DNA of 30,104 nt from a virus. Below are positions 4,785 to 12,076 of the stretch, in pieces (within the stretch, counting starts at the first letter, position 1; every line of letters begins with the position of its first letter). A model generated the notes under the pieces. That model was not told the DNA's origin. It made no database searches and saw only the letters and a list, made by a program, of their open reading frames with translations. The DNA is taken from the IMG/VR virus record IMGVR_UViG_3300017782_000125, positions 1 to 30,104 of that record, one strand, 5' to 3'. The position numbers and the translations under genes were made by a program.

Positions 4785-5022
4785 CTAGAGGAGCCTGCTT
4801 CTGTTGTTCTGGTGGCGGGGCTTGCTCTGCGCTTCGCTCTTTCCACTCACTGACTTTTAATCCCAGATATGGCTTCCCACCTTTGCTGGTGTTCTTCCAC
4901 GCTGAAACGCTGTATTTGACACCTTCGATGGTGACCTCACCGCGCATATCAGGGCGCATTTCGTTGTCACCTTTGTCATTTGGGAACAGCGCCCCTTTCA
5001 TTTCATTGTCCACTGATCTCAT
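4765..5022 (-). CDS. Small SSB-like protein with acidic DDAIPF tip
   Basis: From ATG 5022 the product has 85 residues; ATG 5001 would remove seven. It has a compact beta-rich domain (GALFPNDKGDNEMRPDMRGE, then KYSVSAWKNTSKGGKPYLGL), a Pro/Gln-rich linker (QAPPPEQQKQ) and the terminus PLDDAIPF. The acidic tip ending in IPF copies the bacterial SSB C-terminal peptide that recruits recombination and repair proteins. Its place directly after the ERF annealing protein and the exonuclease supports a role at single-stranded DNA. It is shorter than a normal OB-fold SSB, so binding is inferred. Confidence 0.6.
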   Translation of the reverse strand: MRSVDNEMKGALFPNDKGDNEMRPDMRGEVTIEGVKYSVSAWKNTSKGGKPYLGLKVSEWKERSAEQAPPPEQQKQAPLDDAIPF

Positions 5023-5602
5023 CCTTTCTCTTGCTAAACTTCTGGATCGTGTGTTGGTCAGTTGGTTTGACCCTATTGAACAGGGCAACCAGTTCGTCTC
5101 TGGTTTTTGCCTGTTGCAATTCTTCATCAAGCGTCAAAGGGGCAGCCCCTGACCCTACGGATTTGGTCGCAGAGTCAGGGGGCGAACCTGAAAGGAGGGA
5201 GGAAGTACCTTTCGGTTCATCATCGAAATAGCCGTTATCAGCGCCATCATTATCAGCATCCTCAACACCTTTTTCGGTGCCAAATAATGAGGCCAAGCCA
5301 TACCGCTTGGCATAGGTAATCGCGCCCCCAACCTTCTGATTGTTAGTGCGGTCATCGACTATGACTGGATATCGGCTCTCCCTTTTTTCACCTGACTCAT
5401 GCAGCATCACACTGCGCACGAAAATCATGTCTCCTTCAAAATCCACCTCTTGCGTAAATGCCAAGCCATATTGAGCGGCCTGTTTTACGTTAGATATCAC
5501 TGCGCCAATGGACGCATATTTTGATCTGTTACCCTGTTTATCAGCCTCAAAACCCGCAGTTTTTTTCTGAAACTGCACCAAAGCCTTTGCTAGTTCACTC
5601 AT
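5003..5602 (-). CDS. erf: ERF-family single-strand annealing protein
   Basis: This 199-residue protein has the ERF signature: SKYASIGAVI, KQAAQYGLAFTQ, a MLHESGE turn, and GGAITYAKRYGLASLFG followed by an acidic segment (EDADNDGADNG). ERF proteins anneal complementary strands in phage recombination, like lambda Beta. The C-terminal 70 residues are a low-complexity linker plus a short helical end. It overlaps the exonuclease stop by eight bases and precedes the SSB-like gene, giving the expected exonuclease-annealase-SSB set. Confidence 0.92.
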   Translation of the reverse strand: MSELAKALVQFQKKTAGFEADKQGNRSKYASIGAVISNVKQAAQYGLAFTQEVDFEGDMIFVRSVMLHESGEKRESRYPVIVDDRTNNQKVGGAITYAKRYGLASLFGTEKGVEDADNDGADNGYFDDEPKGTSSLLSGSPPDSATKSVGSGAAPLTLDEELQQAKTRDELVALFNRVKPTDQHTIQKFSKRKDEISGQ

Positions 5603-6557
5603 TTATAACCTCGATTTTTTTCGCATTATTTTTGGCAACCTTTACACGGATGCCATGACCAAAGGCTTCAGAGGCGTGAGGCGGCACAAGTTTCTTTATG
5701 CCTGCCTCTGCCTTTTTATATGTCTCCGCCGCACCAGCCGTTTGGATGAATGTGTTGGCAAGTTGTTCCCACCTGGCATCGTTGTTGCTCTGGGTCATAT
5801 CGACAGGCAAACGATCTTCTGGTGGCAGGATTATCTCTTGGCGCTCAACCTCATCGGGATAGACGCCCATCTCAATACACCCCATGAAATAGGTGGCTAG
5901 GCCAATCAGGTGCTTTGTATATTCTGGATCAAGTTTTACCTCGTGAAAGGTTGGCTCATTGCCGCCTTTGAGGATTGACAACAGCCCATATTCGACAGGC
6001 CGTCCCAGCGCTTCAGATAACAAAAAACCGTTCCAATGAAGCTGCGGGGTGTATTTGCGCACCAAGCGAGGGATCACATCTGACCACTCCTCGCCCTTCA
6101 TCGGCCTGCCCATCGTGAACTTTGCATCGAATACGGCGGCTGAGTCTTTATAATTGTGAACCGCGCCATCTAAGGTGCAACGCATAAAGTCGTGCTTCTT
6201 GCCGTTGATCACTCTTTGGCGGTCAATGATTTCGATGCCTTGCTTATATTGACACCATTCGGTGTTCACTTCTTCTGTGACATAGCCCATCAAGACAGGC
6301 CAAACGGTCGAAAGGTCGAGGTCTGTACCCGCAACCTTGCGCTCATATAAGTCGTTTATTTCTTTGGGATCACCTGCGGCAAGAGTGTTTATTTCAGACC
6401 CGCCAATGGTTCTGCGCCTTTCATCAAGGCTTTTCTGACTCAAAGAGAATGAGCGGAAAAATGCAGGTATCTCCTGCACTTCCCCCTCATCTCCCTTTTT
6501 ATGATCTCCAATGGTCATACCCCTTTTTACATTAGGGCATAACCATTGGTCAAGCAT
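5595..6557 (-). CDS. YqaJ/lambda-exonuclease-like recombination exonuclease
   Basis: This 320-residue protein has the YqaJ pattern: RRRTIGGSEI (about 48-56), an acidic pair in GYVTEEV (95-96), CTLDG (D130) and FDAKF (D144, K146). These form a PD-(D/E)XK active site that resects double-stranded ends, giving tails for the ERF protein downstream. The start is uncertain: ATG 6557 has no ribosome-binding site and overlaps an operator-like element; ATG 6518 has AAAAAGGGGT immediately before it. Family confidence is high despite this. Confidence 0.88.
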   Translation of the reverse strand: MLDQWLCPNVKRGMTIGDHKKGDEGEVQEIPAFFRSFSLSQKSLDERRRTIGGSEINTLAAGDPKEINDLYERKVAGTDLDLSTVWPVLMGYVTEEVNTEWCQYKQGIEIIDRQRVINGKKHDFMRCTLDGAVHNYKDSAAVFDAKFTMGRPMKGEEWSDVIPRLVRKYTPQLHWNGFLLSEALGRPVEYGLLSILKGGNEPTFHEVKLDPEYTKHLIGLATYFMGCIEMGVYPDEVERQEIILPPEDRLPVDMTQSNNDARWEQLANTFIQTAGAAETYKKAEAGIKKLVPPHASEAFGHGIRVKVAKNNAKKIEVINE

Positions 6558-6575
6558 TTATGCTCATATATGCTA
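6552..6575. promoter_or_regulatory. Operator-like element at exonuclease start
   Basis: AAGCATTTATGCTCATA (6552-6568) matches 10663-10679 and 10704-10720, and its reverse complement TGAGCATAAATGCTT differs by one base from the copy at 2504-2518. A second overlapping half reads TGCTCATATATGCTA (6561-6575). It lies in the 15-base gap between repressor stop and exonuclease start and extends over that start, so it could regulate the exonuclease separately from the repressor. Confidence 0.55.
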
Positions 6576-7166
6576 TCTTGCGAGGTTTATTGAGATAACT
6601 GGTGCCACCCCTTTCAGTTCCTTTCCGAAGGTCTGTTCCTCTGAGAGCTCTGGCCTGAAATAGACGCCATTGCCAACAAACTCGCGGACTATTGCGACCA
6701 AACGATTGCCGCGCTGGATTGTCAGCACAACAATATCATTGTCTTTTACTGGCTCGTCTGGGTCACAAAAGAGAAAGTCACCATGCCGCAGGCGCGGTTC
6801 CATTGCGCTGCCGCAGTTAAACATACCAAACGCTTCTTTTGCTTTTGCCAAAACAGGCGGACGATCAATGCGGCTGGTCATTGCCATATCGAAGCGCACC
6901 GACTCGCCATCTGGCTCCGGCAAAGCATACACAGGGATATCATCTGATAGCATATGAGACGCAGGCTGATATTGATCAGGCGCTAAGATATCGTCCTCAT
7001 CACATTTGAGGATTTGCGCCAAGCCAGCTAAGTGAGTGCCGACTCTTCTGCGTCCTTTTTCGATGCGGCTGTATTCAGCCTGATTGATGCCAAGTGACTC
7101 TGAGACTTGGCCTTGCGATAGTTTCTGCGCATCACGAAGTCTACGCAGGTTGTTTGGATACTCCAT
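6573..7166 (-). CDS. CI-like repressor: XRE HTH plus S24-like domain lacking the catalytic Ser/Lys
   Basis: Residues 5-55 form a helix-turn-helix (LRRLRDAQKLSQGQVSESLG, then NQAEYSRIEKGRRR). Residues about 105-190 resemble the LexA/CI S24 domain. In active repressors the G-x-SM-x-P motif holds the nucleophile; here it reads CGSAMEPRLRHGD, with Ala121 at the Ser position, and the Lys position reads IVREF with Arg161. Self-cleavage is therefore doubtful. No clear ribosome-binding site precedes ATG 7166; a 54-codon leader frame overlaps it. Divergence from a Cro-like gene supports a lysogeny repressor role. Confidence 0.88.
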   Translation of the reverse strand: MEYPNNLRRLRDAQKLSQGQVSESLGINQAEYSRIEKGRRRVGTHLAGLAQILKCDEDDILAPDQYQPASHMLSDDIPVYALPEPDGESVRFDMAMTSRIDRPPVLAKAKEAFGMFNCGSAMEPRLRHGDFLFCDPDEPVKDNDIVVLTIQRGNRLVAIVREFVGNGVYFRPELSEEQTFGKELKGVAPVISINLAR

Positions 7167-7330: not shown

Positions 7331-7442
7331 TACGCATATATACTAACGCTTAAACGCGCAGAAATGCTAGTATTTTTATTGCTATTACATAATAGCCCAC
7401 TATATGGTTTGACATATGAGCCTATATGCGTAATTATGCGCT
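7331..7442. promoter_or_regulatory. Repressor/Cro divergent control region
   Basis: This AT-rich gap holds operator-like elements: TACGCATATATACTA (7331-7345), CGCGCAGAAATGCTA (7355-7369) and the reverse of AGCGCATAATTACGC (7428-7442), plus a half-site ATATGAGC near 7414. A rightward promoter is likely: TTGACA (7409-7414), then about 16 bases, then TAATTA (7431-7436), with the last element on its -10. This is the layout of a lambda-like immunity region. I did not find a convincing leftward -35. Confidence 0.55.
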
Positions 7443-7473
7443 AAAGTGAAATGTCAGCATATTGTGTTGGGAT

Positions 7474-7683
7474 ATGAAATTAAATCAATATTTGGTGTCT
7501 AAAGGGCTGAGTCAGTCCGATTTTGCGAAACAATGTCAGGTATGCCAGGCCACAGTCCATAAATGGATTTATGGCAGGTCAGTGCCGTCCGGCAAGCGGA
7601 TGATGCAGATACACAGCCTGACTCGCGGCAAAGTTTCTATTGATGATTGGGTGCGGGAATATGGGCAAGAGTCAGAGGGATAA
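7474..7683 (+). CDS. Cro-like HTH regulator
   Basis: I use ATG 7474 rather than a TTG at 7462. The 69-residue protein has a helix-turn-helix across residues 8-33 (SKGLSQSDFAKQCQVCQATV, then HKWIYG). Its size and divergence from the CI-like repressor match Cro, which competes for the operators and commits to lytic growth. It leads the rightward early operon and overlaps the next gene by 23 bases. The upstream ribosome-binding site is weak (TTGGGAT). Confidence 0.78.
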   Translation: MKLNQYLVSKGLSQSDFAKQCQVCQATVHKWIYGRSVPSGKRMMQIHSLTRGKVSIDDWVREYGQESEG

Positions 7684-7969
7684 GGGCTGGCGGTCGGAAA
7701 ACAACGTCCGCAAAAAGGCTCTGGATCACGAGCTTGACGCTTATCGGGTGCCGCTCAGCGGCGGCGCATCAATTAAAGGCGATGTGGTTGTGAAGGGCAA
7801 AGGCGATAGCTGGACGCTAGAAGTTAAATGCCGCGCTACAGGCTTTAAACAAATATATGACTGGCTGGGTGACAATGATGCACTCGTTATTAAGGCCGAC
7901 AATAAACCTGAACTGGTCGTCCTTGATATGGGCGACTTTTTTGATTTATTGGCAGGGAAGCATGGGTAA
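7661..7969 (+). CDS. Holliday-junction-resolvase-like PD-(D/E)XK nuclease
   Basis: From ATG 7661 the product has 102 residues. The order GKSQRDKGWRSENNVRKKAL (with the helix-1 Glu), PLSGGASIKGDVVV (catalytic Asp) and WTLEVKCRA (ExK) matches Hjc-like and VRR-NUC-like resolvases. It would cut branched DNA made during replication or recombination. It overlaps the Cro-like gene upstream and the Zn-finger gene downstream by eight bases, so it is part of the early operon. Confidence 0.75.
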   Translation: MGKSQRDKGWRSENNVRKKALDHELDAYRVPLSGGASIKGDVVVKGKGDSWTLEVKCRATGFKQIYDWLGDNDALVIKADNKPELVVLDMGDFFDLLAGKHG

Positions 7970-8171: not shown

Positions 8172-8656
8172 TTGATGTGACGCTGACTGATTATGAGATG
8201 GCTATGGCATCAGACGCTGGCAGGCTGCGCAATATTGCGGCGGTTAAGCGGGGATATGAGAGCCGCATCGCAGGGCGTGAATGGCAGGCGCACATTGAAG
8301 GTGCTTGTGGTGAGGTGGCGGTTGCTAAAGCTACTGGCAAATATTGGGGCGGCAGCATCAATTCTTTCAAAACCGGTGGTGACCTTGACAGTACAGGCTG
8401 GGAAGTGCGAACACGGTCTGACCATAGTTATGATCTAATTGTGAGAGATAGTGATCCTGATGATCGCGTTTTTATATTGGTCACAGGTTTATCACCAAAC
8501 TTTAAAATATGGGGCTGGATAATGTCTCAGGATGCAAAGCGAGAGAAGTGGCGAGAAAATCATGGCGGTCACGGAACGGCGTTCTTCGTTCCAAAAATAG
8601 AGTTGAATGAAATGGGAGAACTATATGAGCATCAAAGCAATAACGTGGGCATTTGA
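8168..8656 (+). CDS. Phage protein resembling a PD-(D/E)XK nuclease
   Basis: This 162-residue protein starts at GTG 8168, overlapping the previous stop. Motifs GACGEVAVAKATGKYW, GGDLDSTGWEVRTRS and RVFILVTG follow the helix-Glu, Asp, E-x-K-like order of PD-(D/E)XK nucleases. However, the usual Lys is Arg (EVR), so activity is uncertain. It is placed between a Zn-finger gene and the replication initiator, with a 32-base overlap into the latter. It could be a DNA-binding relic of the fold. Confidence 0.6.
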   Translation: MIDVTLTDYEMAMASDAGRLRNIAAVKRGYESRIAGREWQAHIEGACGEVAVAKATGKYWGGSINSFKTGGDLDSTGWEVRTRSDHSYDLIVRDSDPDDRVFILVTGLSPNFKIWGWIMSQDAKREKWRENHGGHGTAFFVPKIELNEMGELYEHQSNNVGI

Positions 8657-9383
8657 TCAGAAGCTAGATGATCCGACAGCCAAGTTAGTGTTACTTGGAA
8701 TAGCAGACAAATATAATGAGGACAGGGGCTATGCTTGGCCTTCTGTCGAGCGTCTAGCAGAGATGGCGGATTGTACAGAGCGGACGATTAACCGAAAAAT
8801 TGTCATGCTGGCAGAGCTTGGATTGGTGCAGATTTTACGCAATCCGCCGCAAACAAATCGGTATTTTTTACCTACCCTGACAAATTGTCACCCTGACACC
8901 CATGACAGGGTTACCCTGACACCAGATGTCGGGGTTACCCTGACACCTAGTGTCGTCCAAACTATAGAGAACGATAGTGAACAATATATATCGTTCAAAA
9001 GTGCATTTGAGATGTTCTGGGATGCTGTACCTCGCAAGCAAGGCAAGAAGGGTGCAATGAGAGCGTATAAGACTGCTTTGAAGGACACAGATGCGGACAC
9101 GTTACTCACAGCAATGAAGGCATTTACTGCGGATGTTAAGGTAAAAGGCACAGAGTCACGCTTTATCCCTTTACCAGCTACATGGCTTAATCAAGGCAGA
9201 TGGGATGATGACCTTGCGGGTGAAGCTCCTCAACCGCACGAGAACTTCGGCATATCGCAACGCTGGATGCCCAAAACAGAGGAGCAATTCAAATCACGCT
9301 TTGACAAGATGCCAAATTGGTATCGGCAAAACAGGCCAGACGTTATCAGCGTGGCGAAAGAAGCAGGGTGGCTGAATGAGTGA
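8625..9383 (+). CDS. Replication initiator, lambda O-like, with internal iterons
   Basis: I start at ATG 8625 (GGGAGAACTAT upstream), giving 252 residues. Residues 1-80 form a winged-helix domain of the HTH_36 type (KLVLLGIADKYNEDRGYAWP, then SVERLAEMADCTERTINRKI). A linker (about 85-120) is encoded by the iteron block at 8874-8954. The C-terminal domain (FEMFWDAVPRKQGKKGAMRA and later SRFIPLPATWLNQGRW) is a common phage replication-protein C-terminus. DNA binding by the N-terminus and helicase-loader contact by the C-terminus are inferred by analogy with lambda O. Confidence 0.85.
   Translation: MSIKAITWAFDQKLDDPTAKLVLLGIADKYNEDRGYAWPSVERLAEMADCTERTINRKIVMLAELGLVQILRNPPQTNRYFLPTLTNCHPDTHDRVTLTPDVGVTLTPSVVQTIENDSEQYISFKSAFEMFWDAVPRKQGKKGAMRAYKTALKDTDADTLLTAMKAFTADVKVKGTESRFIPLPATWLNQGRWDDDLAGEAPQPHENFGISQRWMPKTEEQFKSRFDKMPNWYRQNRPDVISVAKEAGWLNE
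8874..8996 (+). other. Candidate replication origin: four iterons plus AT-rich inverted repeat
   Basis: ACCCTGACA occurs at 8874-8882, 8890-8898, 8913-8921 and 8937-8945. Units 3 and 4 have an inner dyad (GACACC.. to ..TGTC) and unit 2 a looser one. An AT-rich stretch follows with an 8-base perfect inverted repeat, GAACGATA (8969-8976) and TATCGTTC (8989-8996). Iterons inside the initiator gene followed by AT-rich DNA is the lambda ori design. Confidence 0.75.
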
Positions 9384-9897
9384 AAAGGACGTAATACTGC
9401 CAACCGCAGAGTTTTTACGCCATCACACTGTTGAGCAGGTTGAGACTCGCAAGGCGGGGAAGAAACGCACAAGGGTCACTGATCAGCGCTGGATTGATTA
9501 TTATCGCAAGCACCAGCACATCAGCGTAGTGCAGCACATGACTGCGGAACGGCTCCTGGCGCTTTATCGTGCGGCTGGTAGGGCGCAGAGGGTGACTGGA
9601 GCTATGGATGGGATGCCAAAAGGCGCAGGCGGTGAGGTGAGCGATTATAGCGCAATGGCATTGATGGATTATTTCAAGCTCAAATGGCTTATGGGGTCAG
9701 AGAGCTTCAGTTGTGTCGAGGATGTTGTGGTGCATGATTACAGCGCACCTGAGTGGGCAAGGAAGCACAATCGCAACCCAAAGGCTGCGACTGAGATATT
9801 GCGCATGAGTCTTGATCACCTAGAAGAGGCCTTCAAGAACCTCAGATCATTTAGACGGCACATTGATTTGAGCGGGATAAATCAACCCTCTGAGTAG
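9376..9897 (+). CDS. Unknown early protein, possibly DUF6456-like
   Basis: This 173-residue, mostly helical protein overlaps the initiator stop by eight bases. The middle (AERLLALYRAAGRAQRVTGA) and the end (WARKHNRNPKAATEILRMSL DHLEEAF) recall the DUF6456 domain of alphaproteobacteria, but the match is from memory and loose. It sits where lambda keeps its helicase loader, yet has no P-loop, so it is not an AAA+ loader. It could be a non-ATPase loader or a late regulator. Confidence 0.55.
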   Translation: MSEKDVILPTAEFLRHHTVEQVETRKAGKKRTRVTDQRWIDYYRKHQHISVVQHMTAERLLALYRAAGRAQRVTGAMDGMPKGAGGEVSDYSAMALMDYFKLKWLMGSESFSCVEDVVVHDYSAPEWARKHNRNPKAATEILRMSLDHLEEAFKNLRSFRRHIDLSGINQPSE

Positions 9898-10662: not shown

Positions 10663-10720
10663 AAGCATATTTGCTCATATTATTACCTAGAGTAATATAA
10701 TGCAAGCATATATGCGCATA
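10663..10720. promoter_or_regulatory. Overlapping divergent promoters between two operators
   Basis: Leftward: TTGCAT (10705 to 10700), 17 bases, TAATAT (10682 to 10677). Rightward: a perfect TATAAT at 10696-10701 with a weak TTGCTC (10671-10676). Operator copies AAGCATATTTGCTCATA (10663-10679) and AAGCATATATGCGCATA (10704-10720) flank both. Between them TATTAC-CTAGA-GTAATA (10681-10697) is a further dyad. A protein bound to the two copies would shut both promoters. Confidence 0.6.
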
Positions 10721-10772
10721 GGGTTGTGTGGTGGGGACGCTTGTGATATGTTCTATGGAACAATGAATAGTT

Positions 10773-10795
10773 GCGCCACTGGGGGCGCTTTTTTT
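10773..10795 (+). terminator. Terminator-like hairpin directly before methyltransferase start
   Basis: GCGCC (10773-10777) pairs with GGCGC (10784-10788), followed by seven T, and the methyltransferase ATG comes next at 10796. Termination here would prevent expression from the upstream promoter, so it may be an attenuator. The G-run in the hairpin is the only purine-rich stretch near the start codon. Confidence 0.6.
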
Positions 10796-12076
10796 ATGTC
10801 TGGAATTGAAGTCAAGTATATGGACGCAAAGGCAATCACGCCTTATGCGAGGAACAGCCGCACGCACAGCGATGAGCAGGTTGCTCAAGTAGCTGCAAGC
10901 ATCAAAGAGTTTGGCTGGACTAACCCGATATTAATTGATGAAAAGCACACAATCATTGCAGGGCATGGCAGGCTTATGGCTGCGCAAAGGCTTGGCTTTG
11001 ATGAAGTGCCAACGATTATGCTGCCCAATCTTACCGATGCGCAGAAACGTGCTTATGTCATAGCTGACAACAAATTGGCACTAAATGCGGGTTGGGACGA
11101 GGAAATGCTCGCTGTCGAGATTGAGGAGTTGCTGGATCAGGGCTATGACCTTGATCTAACTGGCTTTGGTGCAGATGAAATCGATAGCCTACTTGCTGAA
11201 GCCGAAAAGGTTGATGAAGGGTTAACAGATGAAGATGCTGTGCCAGAAGCGCCAGCAGAGCCTATTAGCAAATTGGGCGATGTATGGACACTAGGCAAGC
11301 ACCGTGTTCTTTGCGGCGATAGCACAAGCATTGATTGCATTGACGCTTTGATGCTTAGCTCACCAGCCGATATGGTGTTCACCGACCCGCCATATAATGC
11401 TGATTATAAATCACGTGGTGGCAATGAATTGCTACGCAAGGGCATCAAAAATGATGCAATGTCTAATCAAGCATTTGATGACTTTATAAGCGGTTTTTTG
11501 CCAATGATGTTTGCGGCCTCAAAAGAGGGAGCGTCATTTTACGTTTGTTGTAATTGGAAAGATAGTTATCCACGCTTTTACAATCATATCACCGATGCTG
11601 GCATGAATGTTTCATCCTGCATTGTTTGGGATAAAAAGTCTGGCGGTATGGGTTGGCAAGATTACCGTTATCAATATGAGTTGATTATTTACGGATTTAA
11701 AAAAGATAAAGCGCACTCGTGGTATGGTGGCAGGACTGAGACTGACATTTGGCAATTCAGCCGTGAAAACAGAACCGACTACGTTCACCCAACACAAAAG
11801 CCAGTTGAGTTAATTGAGAGAGCAATCAACAACAGCAGTAAAGCTGGGGATTGTGTTGTAGATTTGTTTGGTGGCTCAGGCTCCACGTTAATTGCCTGTG
11901 AGAAAACAGGCAGGCACTCACGATTGCTTGAATTAGATCCAATTTATGTCGATGTGATTGTAAAGCGCTGGCAGGACTTCACAGGACAAGACGCGGTGCA
12001 TGAAGCATCAGGGAAAACATTTAACGAGTTGAGCAATGGCAAGACCGCACAAGACGAACAGCAAGAAATCGCCTGA
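10796..12076 (+). CDS. ParB-domain DNA methyltransferase (beta-class, N6A or N4C)
   Basis: I use ATG 10796, giving 426 residues; a frame from 10700 would have to read through the hairpin. The N-terminal 110 residues are a ParB/Srx-like domain (ITPYARNSRTHSDEQV, then IIAGHGRLMAAQRLG). The methyltransferase part has TDPPYNADY (about 197-200) before DLFGGSGST (about 358-363), the beta-class order, and the usual HPTQKP. It transfers methyl groups to adenine or cytosine amino groups. No specific restriction partner is evident, so protection from host nucleases or epigenetic control is likely. It overlaps terS by 41 bases. Confidence 0.9.
   Translation: MSGIEVKYMDAKAITPYARNSRTHSDEQVAQVAASIKEFGWTNPILIDEKHTIIAGHGRLMAAQRLGFDEVPTIMLPNLTDAQKRAYVIADNKLALNAGWDEEMLAVEIEELLDQGYDLDLTGFGADEIDSLLAEAEKVDEGLTDEDAVPEAPAEPISKLGDVWTLGKHRVLCGDSTSIDCIDALMLSSPADMVFTDPPYNADYKSRGGNELLRKGIKNDAMSNQAFDDFISGFLPMMFAASKEGASFYVCCNWKDSYPRFYNHITDAGMNVSSCIVWDKKSGGMGWQDYRYQYELIIYGFKKDKAHSWYGGRTETDIWQFSRENRTDYVHPTQKPVELIERAINNSSKAGDCVVDLFGGSGSTLIACEKTGRHSRLLELDPIYVDVIVKRWQDFTGQDAVHEASGKTFNELSNGKTAQDEQQEIA

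Follow-up and report, generated by a model that had tools for sequence, protein, structure and literature searches.

A probable replication origin of the lambda plan nested in the initiator gene of a temperate phage from environmental sequence

The initiator gene of a temperate phage represented by an environmental sequence (virus record IMGVR_UViG_3300017782_000125) contains an array of four dyad-bearing iterons followed by AT-rich DNA, and the sequence evidence makes it very probable that the two together are the replication origin of the phage, laid out on the plan of bacteriophage lambda. The window, which is the whole stretch of DNA analysed, comprises 30,104 bases. An origin inside the initiator gene is a known design, of which this is a well-supported new example; the more useful result is that the architecture stays fixed while the repeats are exchanged across the initiator family. 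The initial annotation had proposed that the initiator linker holds a lambda-like origin, and this proposal is supported by the conservation of synonymous sites, by dyads fixed in position, and by linker repeats and AT-rich DNA throughout the family. A literature search found no description of origins in the HTH_36 family, subscription reviews lying outside the search, so that an earlier description is possible. The features concerned are as follows.

6573..7166, minus strand: CI-like repressor (HTH and S24 peptidase), divergent from the early operon
7409-7437: promoter-like match (consensus match only) before the Cro/YdaS-like gene of the rightward operon
7462..7683, plus strand: Cro/YdaS-like gene, the first of the rightward operon, which extends through the initiator
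8625..9383, plus strand (ORF from 8607): replication initiator gene, assigned from PHROG 270, Pfam HTH_36 and a structure model; domains, numbered from 8607, are a winged helix (residues about 7-80), a linker (81-129) and a C-terminal domain (130-202)
8874..8889, plus strand: iteron 1, ACCCTGACAAATTGTC, with the dyad GACA-AAT-TGTC
8890..8911, plus strand: iteron 2, ACCCTGACACCCATGACAGGGT, self-complementary at 16 of 22 positions
8913..8935, plus strand: iteron 3, ACCCTGACACCAGATGTCGGGGT, self-complementary at 18 of 23 positions
8937..8959, plus strand: iteron 4, ACCCTGACACCTAGTGTCGTCCA, with the inner dyad only
8960..8999, plus strand: putative AT-rich unwinding region, 72% AT, with AACNATA three times (8960, 8970 and 8980)
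8969-8976 and 8989-8996, no strand: 8-bp inverted repeat, conserved only in near-identical contigs

The encoded protein matches the profile of the PHROG 270 replication initiation proteins across both of its domains (E 5e-38, residues 11-225), and Pfam HTH_36 (PF13730) is matched at residues 23-74 (E 5e-10). Translation probably starts at the ATG at 8625 rather than at 8607, since GGGAG lies six bases upstream of the former and MSI is the N-terminal sequence of the relatives; the preceding gene ends within the ORF. An AlphaFold2 model built with an alignment of 28 relatives has a confident winged helix and a confident helical domain from about residue 123 on, and linker residues 94-125, with pLDDT below 50, are predicted to be disordered. 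The iterons code for about residues 90-118, within or adjoining this predicted disordered stretch. A Foldseek search with the model matched phage replication proteins in a viral library, and in the PDB nothing beyond generic winged helices, with no E value below 0.001.

The repeat ACCCTGACA occurs exactly at 8874, 8890, 8913 and 8937, spanning 8874-8945 with start-to-start spacings of 16, 23 and 24 bp, and has no other exact occurrence in the 30 kb window. Each exact copy is the left arm of an imperfect dyad, and the reverse copies with one mismatch at 8903 and 8927 are right arms of dyads in the same array. The inner dyad GACA-N(3-5)-TG(T/A)C is present in 4/4 iterons, extending in iterons 2 and 3 to ACCC...GGGT. 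The array thus lies inside the initiator coding sequence and each iteron is an inverted repeat, as befits a dimer site, the imperfect dyads being kept in the set of eight related sequences described below. Four copies of any 9-mer arose in none of 20,000 synonymous-codon shuffles of the initiator gene, and four such dyads within 80 bp in none of 5,000; these shuffles preserve the protein and hence its repetitive peptide too. The four linker iterons of the initial annotation are therefore real and beyond what codon shuffling yields, and the dyads are real as well, but its attribution of a dyad to only some of the iterons was too low.

Directly 3' of the array, 8960-8999 is the AT-richest 40 bp of the initiator gene, in agreement with the AT-rich stretch that had been claimed to follow the iterons. 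Its three AACNATA repeats stand 10 bp apart and are largely conserved in relatives. A cluster of this kind was matched by 14 of 2,000 codon shuffles in the window gene and by 4 of 2,000 in a relative (L004, see below), with 64-80 per 2,000 in three other relatives, and as an origin element the AACNATA array is suggestive only. The perfect 8-base inverted repeat noticed earlier in this stretch does exist; as a part of the origin it was rejected, being absent from relatives of 50-63% identity.

Comparison with relatives indicates that selection acts on the DNA of the array itself. The L004 initiator protein is about 60% identical to that of the window, and at the DNA level the linker is 91% identical, the winged-helix part 74% and the C-domain 60%. 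Codons for the same residue are identical at 22/25 positions in the linker and at 63/126 elsewhere (Fisher p 3e-4), i.e. synonymous sites are conserved in the linker. The four dyads stand at offsets 0, 16, 39 or 40, and 63 in eight sequences (the window, L003, L004, L188, L026, L186, L027 and L005). In L027 and L005 the dyad positions are kept, and the flanks of the repeats and the linker peptide differ from those of the window. The flanks in L027 are altered jointly on both arms (CATGACA...TGTCATG), as is expected if a dimer reads each dyad. Homologues with a conserved linker peptide and no DNA repeats had been named as the finding that would speak against an origin; the opposite was found.

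Linker repeats and AT-rich DNA are, as judged from sequence, general in the initiator family. A repeat family surpassing 99 or more of 100 codon shuffles is present in 34 of the 72 non-redundant homologues; most copies lie in the linker in 34/34 of these, and all copies in 30/34, the linker making up 23% of the gene in this test. Most periods fall at 21-24 bp, and the sequence of the repeat differs between homologues. The other 38 of the 72 failed the strict shuffle test, many of them having only three copies or degenerate ones. Lambda O, the positive control, was positive, and so was one of 66 valid control ORFs taken from the homologues' own loci, with the L186 initiator itself excluded. The AT-richest 40 bp falls within the linker in 88/96 homologues, against an expectation of 26, and usually within the 3' portion of the linker, which is the same side as in lambda. 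The homologues are not independent, and these counts therefore show breadth rather than exact significance. They provide an origin call for a large phage group whose origins are seemingly unannotated, together with naturally occurring pairs of initiator and iterons that differ in recognition sequence and share a fixed architecture; such pairs could show how winged-helix initiators read DNA.

Two observations from these scans concern loci outside the initiator genes. The sole control ORF beyond the shuffles (L070, 239-1094) has GTTTGAATG-like repeats, and its locus also has an initiator homologue. A scan for the DNA pattern gave one match outside initiators, in L187; it lies in a structural gene that is baseplate-like by its translation as judged by eye, and was taken as chance.

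The same array could serve as an operator or as another kind of site, for autoregulation, partition or incompatibility, with replication starting elsewhere. Dyads are typical of dimeric regulators, the winged helix bears a weak resemblance to transcriptional regulators of solved structure, and a sequence search of solved structures with the initiator gave only weak matches, to winged-helix regulators. However, the array lies 250 bp inside the gene and not at a promoter, its repeat recurs exactly nowhere else in the window, the AT-richest part of the gene falls in the linker too in the great majority of homologues as counted above, and the layout follows that of the proven lambda origin (PMC5043065, PMC7466680). 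An operator or similar role is accordingly improbable. Far less probable still, to the point of being nearly negligible, is that a repetitive linker peptide (VTLTPD repeats), kept by selection on the protein or produced by slippage, gave rise to the DNA repeats as a side effect. The peptide encoded by the repeats is indeed partly repetitive, with a period of 8 codons, but shuffles that preserve this peptide never give the array, the spacings of 16 and 23 bp are not divisible by three, and the linker is predicted to be disordered. Moreover, the conserved synonymous sites and the dyads that L005 and L027 keep with a different peptide both point to the DNA as the conserved element, which favours the reading of the array as an origin.

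The likeness to lambda ori covers four dyad iterons about midway along the initiator gene, a similar spacing (annotated lambda iterons are at offsets 0, 20, 44 and 67, i.e. spaced by 20, 24 and 23 bp), and then about 40 bp of AT-rich DNA. The sequences differ, the window iteron beginning with ACCCTGACA and that of lambda being TCCCTCAAAACGAGGGA. The initiators differ too, the window protein matching PF13730 and neither PF04492 nor TIGR01610, the families of lambda O, and having another C-terminal domain. The initial annotation had suggested independent convergence on this plan by an initiator unrelated to O, a reading that is compatible with the site being an origin. It draws support from the absence of any match between the initiator and lambda O in direct BLASTP and profile comparison, from the different Pfam families (HTH_36 vs Phage_rep_O) and from the unlike C-terminal domains. 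It is weakened by the N-terminal domains of the window protein and lambda O, both of which find matches in overlapping regions of phrog_345 and phrog_678 (E 2e-7 for the window protein; 5e-17 and 2e-35 for lambda O), and by phrog_391, which has a window-like N-domain together with a lambda-O-like C-domain. Because of these shared matches and this mixture of domains, distant common ancestry with module exchange appears more likely than full convergence, and complete independence of the two initiators is rather unlikely. Searches with lambda O itself matched none of the solved structures by sequence, and among viral contigs found near-identical copies only.

In lambda, each iteron is an inverted repeat bound by dimers of O, which open the neighbouring 40 bp of AT-rich DNA (PMC5043065, PMC7466680). 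By analogy, binding, melting and helicase loading may be ascribed to the initiator of the present phage. Its winged helix would bind each dyad as a dimer, and four such dimers would wrap or bend the array; the AT-rich DNA at 8960-8999, with its AACNATA repeats, would melt next to it, after which the host replicative helicase would be brought in by the C-terminal domain, either unaided or together with another factor. Early-operon transcription continuing beyond the cro-like gene would pass through the origin. Since the linker is apparently unstructured, it could tolerate any peptide spelled by the origin DNA, and this would let initiator and origin travel as one cassette. A broader proposal, put forward tentatively, is that embedded origins are ancestral and general for the winged-helix initiators of this family. 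The disordered linker might then be a peptide-neutral space in which iterons are swapped along with matching changes in the winged helix, altering replicon specificity with the protein unbroken, and the helically phased AACNATA repeats might serve specifically to open the strands, beyond being merely rich in AT.

The genome context also resembles that of lambda, with a CI-like repressor, a cro-like gene and then the initiator in a rightward operon. Beyond the repressor, a leftward operon on the minus strand (5003-6557) encodes an Erf-like annealing protein and a RecE-like exonuclease. A difference from lambda is that no P-like helicase loader was recognised downstream of the initiator or anywhere among the scanned genes. 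The gene at 9376-9897, directly downstream of the initiator, sits where lambda has the loader P and has no Pfam, PHROG or NCBIfam match; it is possibly a loader of a so far unmatched type. No DnaA box was found near the array. GC skew, which had been suggested as a further check, does not point to the array; the sign changes near 7 kb and not at 8.9 kb, and gene direction confounds the measure.

Origins in initiator genes occur in several phages of Gram-positive bacteria as well, and the iterons of plasmids of the RK2, P1 and pSC101 type lie mostly outside the initiator gene. These plasmids likewise combine an iteron array with an AT-rich region, and differ from the window, with its dyads, in that their iterons are mostly direct repeats binding monomers (PMC5043065). 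RepC of repABC plasmids offers a nearer likeness in placement; for example, oriV of Rhizobium etli p42d lies inside repC and has an essential AT-rich region, but repC is without iterons or DnaA boxes (PMC3155836). The similarity of RepC to the window initiator is weak, confined to the N-domain and below the cut-off.

The PHROG 270 / HTH_36 initiators of the Arthrobacter phages Marchesin and Galaxy share the protein architecture and have in-gene linker repeats with a 22-bp period; their repeat differs, being GGGGTGAAC. No origin feature is annotated in the examined stretches of the Arthrobacter phage records. Three initiators that are 45-48% identical to that of the window (L029, L030 and L031) have a linker repeat of the GGGGTGA type, quite unlike the window's and resembling that of the distant Arthrobacter phages; the repeat type may have been exchanged or have converged. 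Upstream of the window initiator, a small gene (7640-7969) has a weak match to the phage endonuclease family PDDEXK_15, and Arthrobacter relatives have a RusA-like resolvase at this place. Further downstream, 10700-12076 encodes a DNA methyltransferase whose N-terminal domain is ParB-like (phrog_498); in the Arthrobacter phages L020 and L023, a DNA methyltransferase gene follows the initiator directly.
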